This document shows positions 7,807 through 10,767 of a stretch of 11,174 nt of DNA, piece after piece. The stretch's first letter is position 1. The number at the start of each line of letters is the position of its first letter. The stretch comes from an uncultured Flavobacteriales bacterium (lineage in GTDB: Bacteria; Bacteroidota; Bacteroidia; Flavobacteriales; Vicingaceae). The position numbers and the translations under genes were made by a program. Below the pieces are notes generated by a model, which saw nothing but the letters and a program-made list of their open reading frames with translations, did not search any database and was not told the DNA's origin. The stretch lies in the NCBI GenBank assembly GCA_913052515.1, contig CAJXFJ010000022.1, forward strand, positions 1 through 11,174, given 5' to 3'.

Positions 7807-9584
7807 TATTTGTATTTTAAATAGTTGTAATAACTAAAGGCCCCGCCAAAATGCACTATTTCCTTTTTCTCTCTATCATCATCTTTTCTTGGTTTTTTTG
7901 TTTTCATTTCTTCGGGTAGAATTTTTTTTAATCTTGCGACTCTTCTTTTTCTATTCTTATCAAGTCTTCTCATTTGAGAACGAGCTATAAAATTATCTTC
8001 AACTAATTTGAATCCATTTGTCCAGCAAAGACCACTTTCATTTATTGATTTATGGTTATGCATCTGAACTCTACCAACAGACATAGCTATTAATCTCTCT
8101 TCTGCACTTTTTAATATTTTTCTCTTACTCCATCTACCATCAATTGTATAACTTTTAATATCTCTTCCTTTTCTGCCTAAAGACTTATGAATTCTATTAA
8201 TCTCTTTTCCTTGTTTTTTAATTTCTTTTCTTATTGAGTCTTTTCTTATTCTAATAAGACCGTCATACCTAATTTGATAACCTACAAATGCAACCCAAGG
8301 AACATTTTCTTCACCTTCATATTTGTTTCCCCAATAAAAAGGTTCTTTTGATTTTTCCTTCCAAAAAGCAATAGCGTTCTCTCTAACCTTATAATTTTTA
8401 ATTTTTTTTGGCTCGTGATAGATTAATAAATTGTCTTTAATTGCATTTTTATAAATATCTAGGCCTTTATTGCATAAATCAGAATCCGGATGCATAAGTA
8501 CCATATCATCACAATATCTTACATAAAATATATTTGCATCGACTTCTAGTACCTTCTTGTCGACCTCATGCATTATTAAATTAGCAATGAAACATGATAT
8601 GGCATTCCCTTGGGGAACACCTATTCTATTATCATTAACATACTTTTCTCCATACTCTTTAATAAGAATTTCTTTGACCCATTTGAACTTCCCTCTTTTA
8701 ATATCTCGATCTTCGAACCAACAATCTGATTCATTAATTGGAAGAACATCTACATTAAATGCGAAGGATTCGAGGAATGAACAAAATACACTCCTTGCTA
8801 ATGGAACTGTATCAACACCTTTCAGTAGCATTTCCTTTACTAATTTATCGTACTTCTCTAGAATCAACTTATGGCTAACTGTGTCAAAAAACTTGGCTAT
8901 ATCACATTCTGAAACCCAAACTCTTTTATTCTTCTTTTTGTATTTAAAAATTTCAGAAACAGCATCATGGTGGTTTTTTACTTTGCCATCTTTATCTGCA
9001 GCTCTGAAAGCAAATGAGTTATCAACAAAAAAAGAATCGAATGTCGAGATTAAATATTTAGAGGTCAATGAAGTTATTATTCTATCTTCCAAATCATATA
9101 TAGCAATCGGTCTATAAATTATTTGTTCGTCTCTACCTATCTTTTCTACCTTTTTCTTTAAACCATTAATTTGAGGTGGCTTTATTCTATAAGAACCATC
9201 ATTAATAGATTCAAGCTTACTTCTAATATCTTGACAAAACTTTGTTAGTTCTATGAACCAATCTTTTACTTCCTCTCCTGATTCTTCTTTTCTTTTTTCT
9301 TTTAAATAAGTTTTATAAATTCTTACTTCATTTCTTTTCAAACTATCGTGGTAGAAATCTTTTCTCTCTTTTTTGGTCAACTTTACCCAGGCTCTCCTCG
9401 AAGGAAGAATTCCTTGAAGAAAAGTAAACTCAATATCTTTTTCAGGATCTATTTCACACCTGTCAGCTTCCTTATGGGAGCTAATATTTCTCATCATATG
9501 CTTTTTATGGCGTGCAAATGAATGCTTTGCTCTACATTTACATAAAGACTTTACTATTCTTTTATCAGTGAAAAATTTTTCCAT
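7806..9584 (-). CDS. Stand-alone reverse transcriptase, UG/DRT (defence-associated) type likely
   Basis: RNA-directed DNA polymerase of 592 residues from the chosen start. The catalytic core is complete: YRPIAIYDLEDR (157-168), DNSFAFR (188-194), motif A ECDIAKFFDTVSH with Asp228, motif B GVPQGNAIS (from 322), motif C YCDD (357-360) and FVGYQ (433-437). A basic, His/Cys-containing N-terminal extension of about 140 residues precedes it, and a basic helical thumb-like region follows to a Tyr-rich tail (FSYYNYLKYK). There is no HNH or intron maturase domain and no Cas1, nitrilase or PrimPol fusion. A longer ATG at 9623 adds 13 residues (MFSIIKLRLRIFF), but it lies inside the predicted ncRNA 3' arm, so I chose the ATG at 9584, directly after the U8 tract. 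Known UG/DRT enzymes use a cognate ncRNA as template in phage defence. The RT call is certain; the type is not assigned. Confidence 0.9.
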   Translation of the reverse strand: MEKFFTDKRIVKSLCKCRAKHSFARHKKHMMRNISSHKEADRCEIDPEKDIEFTFLQGILPSRRAWVKLTKKERKDFYHDSLKRNEVRIYKTYLKEKRKEESGEEVKDWFIELTKFCQDIRSKLESINDGSYRIKPPQINGLKKKVEKIGRDEQIIYRPIAIYDLEDRIITSLTSKYLISTFDSFFVDNSFAFRAADKDGKVKNHHDAVSEIFKYKKKNKRVWVSECDIAKFFDTVSHKLILEKYDKLVKEMLLKGVDTVPLARSVFCSFLESFAFNVDVLPINESDCWFEDRDIKRGKFKWVKEILIKEYGEKYVNDNRIGVPQGNAISCFIANLIMHEVDKKVLEVDANIFYVRYCDDMVLMHPDSDLCNKGLDIYKNAIKDNLLIYHEPKKIKNYKVRENAIAFWKEKSKEPFYWGNKYEGEENVPWVAFVGYQIRYDGLIRIRKDSIRKEIKKQGKEINRIHKSLGRKGRDIKSYTIDGRWSKRKILKSAEERLIAMSVGRVQMHNHKSINESGLCWTNGFKLVEDNFIARSQMRRLDKNRKRRVARLKKILPEEMKTKKPRKDDDREKKEIVHFGGAFSYYNYLKYK

Positions 9585-9769
9585 AAAAAAAATGCGTAGC
9601 CGTAATTTAATGATTGAGAACATTGAAAAGGTACATACAAATACCCTGTCACTCTGTTTCGGGAGATTAGAGTTATATTACTGTTTCGGTATTTTCGCGA
9701 AAAACCTACTAATACCTATGTCATAAAAGACAATCCCGTTTCACTTTTTTTACTCTAGCTACGCGTTTT
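9585..9769 (-). ncRNA. Candidate structured RNA upstream of the RT
   Basis: On the minus strand the segment begins with AAAACGCGTAGC (9769-9758) and ends with GCTACGCATTTT (9600-9589). These pair over 7 perfect bases, plus A-U pairs beyond one C-A mismatch, and a U8 run (9592-9585) closes the 3' side. Further possible stems are UAGAGU (9757-9752) with ACUCUA (9673-9668), UGUC/GACA around 9719-9732, GGUAUU/AAUACC (9716-9711 with 9693-9688), and UUUUCGCGAAAA (9703-9692). CCGAAACAG occurs twice, 27 bases apart. No ORF of note is present. Closed-end ncRNAs of roughly this size directly 5' of the RT are known for several DRT systems and retrons. The structure was worked out by hand without energies or covariation. 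Confidence 0.6.
9654..9689. repeat. Direct repeat CTGTTTCGG, two copies
   Basis: CTGTTTCGG occurs exactly at 9654-9662 and 9681-9689 (27-base period) inside the candidate ncRNA; a partial third GTTTC stands at about 9738. They could be operator half-sites for the divergent pair or functional elements of the RNA template. Confidence 0.5.
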
Positions 9770-9800
9770 AAAATTACTTTATTTTATCTAACTTTCGAAA
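9769..9800 (-). promoter_or_regulatory. Possible promoter for the ncRNA-RT transcript
   Basis: On the minus strand TTTC (9800-9797), 20 bases of spacer and TAATTTTA (9776-9769) approximate the TTTG / TAnnTTTG Bacteroidota elements, each with one mismatch. A start a few bases downstream would fall on the GCGTAGC arm of the predicted RNA. The motif is weak in A/T-rich DNA, and it sits in the leader of the divergent primase-like gene, so the two promoters would be back to back. Confidence 0.3.
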
Positions 9801-9801
9801 T

Positions 9802-10767
9802 ATGAGCAGTATTGTTACCAAGTTCAAAAGAACCTACTTAAAAGAGTATTATCACATTGATATTCTTAAAGAGATGGAACTGACGAAAAGTGGATTTTAT
9901 GCAAATGAGATTAATACGTGCAGAAGCTATTACAGCGAAGGAAATATAACAAAGTATAAGGAGCATAAATCGGAACTACCCGCAGTTGCATTTTGTGGTA
10001 AGTTCGAAAATGGTCATTCGTTAAAAAACTTAGTTAGTTATAATAGCTTAATGATTTTGGACATTGATGATTTAGACCCTTTAAGCACACTGAAATTAAA
10101 GCAAGAGTTATCACAAGATGATTTTGTAATGGCATTATGGTTATCTCCATCAGGAGTTGGACTAAAAGGGTTAATAAAAGTATTGGGCGATCAAAACACT
10201 CATAAGGCCCTATTTAAGTCAATTAGCGATTACATCCTCACAACTTATAATCTAATTCTAGATAAAAGTGGCTCAGATATATCAAGGTTATGTTATGTTT
10301 CTTATGACCCTGACCTATATCTTAATATTGATTCAAAAGTATATGAAGATGAAGAAGCAATTAAAAGTCCAAAAGATTCTAAATTGAATAAAAAAATACC
10401 AAAAAAAGATAACTCTGAGATTTTAAAATTGAGTGATTCTATAACTTACAAGGAAGGTTTAAATAGACCACTTGATAGAAAAACTATAACAACAATTATT
10501 AAATACTTAAAGAAGAGAGGCAAATCAATTACATCTACTTATGAAGATTGGGTTAAAGTTGCTCTAGCAATTTCAAATTCATTTACTTTCGATATTGGTC
10601 ACAAATTGTTTTTAGAATTGTGTCGACTAGATGGAAGTTTGCATGATGAAGTTAAAAGCTTAAACCTTATTACGAAAATGTATAACACCAATAAACCTAA
10701 TAGTTCAAATTACATTACATTTTCAACACTTGTTTTTTTAGCACAAAAAAGTGGATTTAAAAGATAA
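9802..10767 (+). CDS. BT4734/VirE-N-type primase-like protein with PriCT-2-like C-terminus
   Basis: The 321-residue protein has the N-terminal core of the BT4734-like (VirE N-terminal) family, related to archaeo-eukaryotic primases: LMILDIDDLD with the acidic pair Asp87/Asp89, LSPSGVGLKGLIKV (114-127) as the second motif, and DKSGSDISRLCYVSYDPDLY (154-173) as the third. After a lysine-rich linker (about 185-210), residues about 245-315 (YEDWVKVALAIS ... LFLELCRLDG ... YITFSTLVFLAQ) resemble the primase C-terminal 2 domain. All motif residues look intact, so nucleotide polymerisation or nucleic-acid binding is plausible. Such proteins usually sit in Bacteroidota mobile elements together with a helicase; no helicase is here, but a divergent RT and its ncRNA lie immediately upstream. 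No clear Shine-Dalgarno sequence. The functional link to the RT is inference. Confidence 0.75.
   Translation: MSSIVTKFKRTYLKEYYHIDILKEMELTKSGFYANEINTCRSYYSEGNITKYKEHKSELPAVAFCGKFENGHSLKNLVSYNSLMILDIDDLDPLSTLKLKQELSQDDFVMALWLSPSGVGLKGLIKVLGDQNTHKALFKSISDYILTTYNLILDKSGSDISRLCYVSYDPDLYLNIDSKVYEDEEAIKSPKDSKLNKKIPKKDNSEILKLSDSITYKEGLNRPLDRKTITTIIKYLKKRGKSITSTYEDWVKVALAISNSFTFDIGHKLFLELCRLDGSLHDEVKSLNLITKMYNTNKPNSSNYITFSTLVFLAQKSGFKR

Follow-up and report, generated by a model that had tools for sequence, protein, structure and literature searches.

Comparison of related loci shows that a conserved RNA, some 177 nt long and bounded by a long closing stem, is encoded beside the gene of a UG39 reverse transcriptase (RT). 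Our preferred explanation, to which as a whole we give a probability of roughly 0.72, is that the UG39 RNA is both scaffold and template, with the segment ahead of its 3' arm being copied from a C-terminal tyrosine of the RT in the service of antiphage defence. According to this model, the RNA would be transcribed from its own promoter and bound by the RT; in what are probably repeated rounds, the enzyme would copy the stretch running from the last hairpin up to the 3' closing arm. Synthesis would start on a tyrosine of the RT's own C-terminal tail, in the manner of DRT9, and the primase-like neighbour may act on the DNA product. In the papers on DRT2, 3, 9 and 10, the ncRNA-using UG RTs worked out so far, no two systems make the same DNA from their RNA. 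With the RNA defined, a candidate named for the template and a residue predicted as primer, the UG39 question can be tested directly.

The window analysed here is a stretch of 11,174 nucleotides from an uncultured Flavobacteriales bacterium (contig CAJXFJ010000022.1); positions on its minus strand are given 5' to 3'. The structured RNA maps to about 9769-9585 of the minus strand, an interval that probably corresponds to the whole transcript, and lies immediately 5' of the RT gene (9584-7806, minus strand). The RT has 592 amino acids, a YCDD box and the C-terminus ...SYYNYLKYK. An earlier note on this DNA had proposed that the RNA is closed by the arms GCGUAGC (9764-9758) and GCUACGC (9600-9594) and ends in eight U directly before the RT; the arms are indeed present, complementary and paired, and the U8 run at 9592-9585 leads from the 3' arm to the RT ATG (9584-9582) with no gap. 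Calling the RT 'stand-alone', as the note did, was not quite right, since a VirE-PriCT2 gene adjoins the RT gene in 72/87 UG39 loci, the window included, with gaps of -17 to 275 nt. The window's copy is encoded divergently on the plus strand (9802-10767) and combines a BT4734-like (VirE_N) domain with PriCT-2 (PADLOC RTasVirE-PriCT2, 322 bits; Pfam PF08800 and PF08707).

The loci behind these counts come from a protein search, which gave 514 RT relatives at E 0.001 or better, and from a scan of genome contigs, which gave 92 confirmed stretches, of which 80 were kept. Removing 21 duplicates and the cut locus L058 from the 108 loci listed leaves 86, or 87 with the window. Alignment A2, which uses sequence and no structural information, comprises eight RNAs of the nearest Flavobacteriaceae lineage, and a structure of 42 pairs was built for it by hand. 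Under this structure, 94.8% of the alignment cells are paired, compared with 89.3% after shuffling, and paired cells fall to 39-51% in controls in which the structure is slid along the alignment. Both sides have changed in 15 of the 42 pairs, against 5.1 in shuffles, and none of 500 shuffles reaches 15; a weak measure, the count of further pair types, is 29 against 25.4 and is equalled by 16/500 shuffles.

A covariance model, R1, was trained on the eight A2 loci with the window excluded, and run on the 87 sources (841 kb). With E no worse than 1, it returned 15 matches, all eight training loci among them, and located the window RNA at 9767-9591 on the minus strand (50 bits, E 1.7e-10). With the filters off, the window's opposite strand reaches 15 bits. 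R1 also matches L004, L005, L010, L012 and L181, while its match to L042 is short and spurious, so that the real matches amount to 14 loci among the 87 sources, those missed being mostly more distant. In the 15-row alignment, which is fitted to R1, leans towards the model and includes the spurious L042 row, 91.1% of cells pair versus 74.3% shuffled, and 29/37 pairs have changed on both sides versus 13.9, a number reached by 0/500 shuffles. The closing stem alone accounts for nine such changes among its 10 pairs. When 16 whole genomes holding such loci were searched with R1, ten contained one copy, at the RT, and six none. Compensatory changes among homologues, looked for without R-scape, are present, and the proposal of a structured RNA survives; covariation, synteny and the position of the promoter lend strong support to its tie to the RT.

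On its own, the window segment folds with -40.7 kcal/mol (z -2.44; 4/200 shuffles are equally stable). Its minimum-energy fold includes the closing stem, a helix of CGGGA (9738-9734) with UCCCG (9664-9660), and the hairpins P3 (UGUC/GACA, 9732-9719; helix 3 of the 15-row alignment), P3' (GGUAU/AUACC, 9716-9688; helix 4) and P5 (AGGGUAU/GUACCUU, 9647-9628; helices 6-7). The P2 hairpin of the relatives is weak or missing in the window. Hairpin P4 (ACUCU/AGAGU, 9673-9651), homologous to the relatives' GAGCC/GGCUC hairpins and equivalent to helix 6 of A2 and helix 5 of the 15-row alignment, is absent from the minimum-energy fold because it crosses the CGGGA/UCCCG helix; its placement in the window was made by hand and lies about 2 nt off the covariance model's alignment. 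The earlier note had instead paired UAGAGU with ACUCUA (9757-9752 with 9673-9668). These strands are complementary, but their pairing occurs neither in the minimum-energy fold nor in the structure of the relatives, which favour ACUCU (9673-9669) with AGAGU (9655-9651); the inner pair is thus probably wrong, with P4 taking its place.

The second strand of the CGGGA/UCCCG helix sits inside the P4 loop (9668-9656), and the helix probably forms a pseudoknot. It corresponds to CAGG/CCUG, which is invariant in the eight relatives, from which the window differs by an A-U to G-C double change, and the strands in L012 are CGGG/CCCG. The arguments for the pseudoknot are this compensatory change, the position shared with the relatives and the presence of the helix in the minimum-energy fold of the window. 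Tested one sequence at a time, the pseudoknot fell below 0.05 in L004 but in none of the other 17 RNAs with the motif (20 were tried); a longer chance match ranked above CAGG in L001, L007 and L036, and just 3 nt were found in L066, L181 and L030.

Seven further UG39 subgroups (37 sequences), each folded on its own, have both-side changes in 12/34, 8/53, 7/40, 5/53, 1/20, 7/28 and 1/45 pairs. Six of the seven feature a closing stem before the RT, and the stem sequences differ among subgroups. An automatic search for closing stems, some of whose choices are clearly wrong, gave a mean score of 28.1 for the 87 upstream regions versus 20.1 for 66 shuffles, with 32/87 regions above the best shuffle. 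RNAalifold, applied to a MAFFT alignment of 14 core RNAs, found little beyond the closing stem because MAFFT misaligned the hairpins. RNA bounds usable for counting motifs and repeats were available for 76/87 loci (7 set by hand, 11 dropped). As a separate observation, 32 of these 76 RNAs contain UCAGUAU 16-49 nt ahead of the 3' arm (shuffled mean 1.1), and the motif is seen in several subgroups, for example in L020, L032 and L018; it is absent from the window and its nearest lineage, which instead contain stretches like GUAUUUG or AUGUAUCUC. In four loci without a partner (L019, L025, L031, L074), the 3' part is highly conserved but of another sequence, CCATAAAGATACAACAATTTGGAA, and may represent another type of template.

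The earlier note had also placed a weak promoter just ahead of the 5' arm. The -7 consensus of Bacteroidota promoters is TAnnTTTG, and the box TAATTTTA at 9776-9769 (minus strand), which has only the weaker TAnnTTT form, is what we take to be a weak promoter box of this type, at the place occupied by TAnnTTTG in relatives; a generic sigma-70 scan of the window gave no promoter on the minus strand. Across the family, TAnnTTTG occurs near the 5' arm in 15/26 loci with a divergent partner (shuffled mean 1.1, maximum 5), mostly 10-12 nt before it. The motif was found in 0/46 loci with a co-directional partner and 0/15 without a partner; these loci must therefore use other promoters or read-through. 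Structured segments upstream of the RT were found in all three layouts.

On an RT tree of 83 of the 87 rows (26 with a divergent partner, 44 with a co-directional one and 13 with none found in the flank), the three layouts need 2 changes versus 33.1 in shuffles, and the window is one of 15 divergent-type rows that group with full support. UG39 is scattered through the Bacteroidota: at E 1e-80 or better, it occurs in 8/395, 12/300 and 7/291 genomes of three order-level samples. The 74 loci on viral contigs are all weak or short matches, and the phages searched contained no UG39 RT. A single plasmid record was seen, a UG39-like RT with 33% identity over 97% coverage in Thiospirochaeta perfilievii (NZ_CP035808.1:21285-23008).

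What kind of RT does this RNA accompany? The best PADLOC match of the window RT is RT_UG39 (568 bits, residues 1-590), followed by Drt9 (99.5 bits), a general RT model (91 bits) and Drt2 (87 bits). NCBIfam has no group for this RT, and its best matches there stay below their cut-offs: first comes the model for RTs of group II introns (97.5 bits, cut-off 300), a point against our explanation, with Drt2 at 73.5 bits (cut-off 390). Foldseek comparison of a structure model (pLDDT 86.9) with the PDB gave DRT9 in all of the top six rows, and a second fold comparison tied DRT9 with the RT of a diversity-generating retroelement (DGR), the latter over fewer residues; going by the model, the closest solved structure is DRT9. 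By fold and, after UG39 itself, by PADLOC profile, DRT9 (UG28) is thus the nearest known system, although the gap between 568 and 99.5 bits sets UG39 apart as a profile group of its own. DRT9 itself is described as probably priming from C-terminal tyrosines (PMC12483538). Among 83 UG39 RTs, 94% have S584 and 89% have Y585, and by analogy with DRT9, priming is predicted to start from a tyrosine in the C-terminal tail of the RT.

The segment that we propose to be copied lies at 9627-9602 of the window. In A2, no invariant run is longer than the homologue of this segment (14 columns, permutation P 0.0004), which follows the last hairpin, precedes the 3' closing arm and is unpaired in the structure of the relatives. 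From its position and conservation we infer that it is the RT template. The overall layout of closing stem, stem-loops and a candidate template ahead of the 3' arm agrees with that of the DRT9 locus L183, where a UUUU stretch occupies the place of the candidate segment. The earlier note had read the locus as one encoding an RT template RNA; for that role, the arguments are the position, the DRT9-like fold of the RT and the layout of this one DRT9 locus, and the assignment is weakened because the minimum-energy fold of the window pairs 16 of the segment's 26 bases with upstream parts of the RNA. A poly-U template, universally conserved in DRT9, was rejected as not conserved in the window's clade: UUUU is found in 4/12 segments of the window's clade, the window's own among them, and the U-run is missing in the other 8/12. 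UG39 differs from DRT9 further in its probable pseudoknot and its primase-like partner.

How the template might be used can be imagined in more than one way. The candidate segment contains UCAAU twice, 9 nt apart (9626-9622 and 9617-9613), just downstream of P5, and a similar arrangement of CAAUGUAUCU followed by CAAU (10 nt) is found in L002, L003 and L007. The RNA of DRT10 (UG17), likewise an ncRNA system, is described with its template downstream of a stem-loop, where it has an A-B-A' pattern (PMC12632851). The UG39 RT could accordingly add repeats like telomerase or DRT10, reading CAAUGUUCU then CAAU and resetting on the second CAAU, which would yield tandem (AGAACATTG)n; we nevertheless regard this as unlikely. 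Across the family, tested on the 54 of 76 RNAs kept as non-redundant, the A-B-A' pattern that is present in the window stays at chance: repeats of k=4 occur in 38 RNAs versus 37.5 expected, of k=5 in 19 versus 15.2 (sd 3.2) and of k=6 in 3 versus 4.3. The same holds for the segments themselves, 12 in number, of which ten core segments entered the pooled test (mean length 3.8 versus 3.64, P 0.34; window alone P 0.20). By eye, moreover, the two copies do not change together, the second being kept as CAAU where the first varies (L001, L008, L036). As family-wide evidence for telomerase-like synthesis, the repeat was therefore rejected. The two systems also differ in their proteins: the window RT scores only 60.7 bits with RT_UG17, and the partner of DRT10 is SLATT, whereas that of the window is VirE-PriCT2, with no SLATT among seven window proteins searched with Pfam. 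Rolling-circle synthesis as in DRT2, in which the RNA would template a stop-free gene, appears very improbable. DRT2 resembles UG39 in pairing an RT with a pseudoknotted ncRNA (PMC12039810), the pseudoknot being probable in UG39, and in 49 of the 54 non-redundant RNAs, the open fraction of the sense strand is 0.768 versus 0.693 shuffled, with 0/300 shuffles as high. This excess plausibly comes from the co-directional clade, in which the partner reading frame and the RNA overlap. The 11 core RNAs of the window's own clade give 0.589 versus 0.617 (P 0.71); the coding circle, being at chance there, was discarded for this clade. A first version of the test hardly discriminated (sense 44/49 versus 38.0 shuffled, range 31-43; antisense 39 versus 38.1). 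The RT of DRT2 is also more distant, the fold of the UG39 RT being nearer to DRT9.

But could the RNA be no template at all? It adjoins the start codon of the RT, and RNA and RT are probably co-transcribed because no other promoter was seen; a cis-acting leader of the RT mRNA, whose fold controls translation or transcription of the RT, would show covariation just as a template RNA does. Against this, the 5' end expected from the promoter box falls at the closing stem, the closing stem and invariant segment match the layout of the DRT9 RNA, and DRT9, the nearest RT, needs an ncRNA, so that we consider a mere leader quite unlikely. A retron msr-msd RNA, suggested by the inverted repeats that close the RNA directly ahead of the RT gene, has next to no probability: among the PADLOC matches listed, the retron model reaches 32 bits on an RT that scores 568 with RT_UG39, NCBIfam retron St85 reaches 41 bits (cut-off 235), and Rfam gives no match. 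The reading of the RNA as scaffold and template remains the one we favour.

The partner protein hints at what may happen to the DNA afterwards. An alignment of 69 of the 72 partners has D87, D89, S115-S117, G120, K122, D154, D159, R162 and D169 identical in 69/69 sequences. Definitions of the motifs of archaeo-eukaryotic primases, among whose families BT4734-like proteins are listed, are given in PMC5862659. Motif I of the partner, MILDID with D87 and D89, has the hhhDhD form, and by our own placement the invariant residues fit motifs I and III, D169 being assigned to the acidic motif III, with a lysine at the motif II position, where a histidine is usual. Foldseek ranks LigD polymerase domains first, albeit weakly (best E 0.077), and a sequence search of the PDB returned no match up to E 1. 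We predict from these residues that the partner is likely an active primase-polymerase, and its conservation beside the RNA suggests that a second enzyme is required for the DNA product. A separate observation concerns the co-directional loci L016 (1419-1582), L020, L022, L024, L033 and L177, where the partner reading frame enters the 5' half of the RNA by 87-101 nt, such that the tail of the partner may be encoded inside the RNA.

More tentatively, and with considerable doubt that all of it holds, UG39 could be a three-part machine, in which the pseudoknotted RNA templates a protein-primed, repeated first strand, and the primase-polymerase primes or copies the second strand to give repetitive duplex DNA. 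If true, this would unite the templating of DRT9 and DRT10 with a DRT7-like primase as separate parts. DRT7 is described as a single RT-primase-polymerase fusion, protein-templated according to a preprint (PMC13213688); like UG39, it couples an RT with a primase-polymerase, which in UG39 are separate genes accompanied by an RNA.

How much of this system was known before? The UG39 RT group and its pairing with VirE-PriCT2 are already known to PADLOC. The earlier note did not recognise the RNA as a described one; this holds for Rfam, which gave no match in the window at the gathering score and none in 9400-9820 up to E 1, and for the papers searched, Mestre 2022 lying outside that search, in which no description of a UG39 RNA or its product was found, but the RT and its partner have already been named. 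Mestre 2022, reportedly the source of the UG39 name and presumably reference 5 of the paper on the DRT2 RNA, may already list the existence of the UG39 RNA. Citing its reference 5, the DRT2 paper states that Class 2 RT genes frequently adjoin an ncRNA (PMC12039810). UG RTs with ncRNA templates are described for DRT2, 3, 9 and 10 (PMC12632851, PMC13174585, PMC12483538, PMC13213688). The myRT paper reports a group UG28b, of which 45-46% co-occur with VirE_N and which is probably the same group as UG39; its main text does not contain the words noncoding or ncRNA (PMC8934634).

Finally, the surroundings of UG39 loci fit the view that the system probably protects against phage. The 107 flanking proteins of 28 loci match 182 PADLOC models in total, and the commonest model among the matches listed is the type I methyltransferase, with 5 matches. 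QatC and QatD directly adjoin the partner gene in L007 (1626-3730), and in L027 (88-9645), the UG39 RT and RNA are bordered on one side by type I restriction genes, with matches to a methylase and a specificity subunit, and on the other by a gene for a GmrSD-type protein. The three flanking proteins scanned in L064 include no defence gene, and Pfam gave no sign of defence among seven window proteins, the RT and partner included. A short ORF elsewhere in the window (4024-3692, minus strand) partially matches a low-molecular-weight tyrosine phosphatase (profile positions 69-111 of 144).
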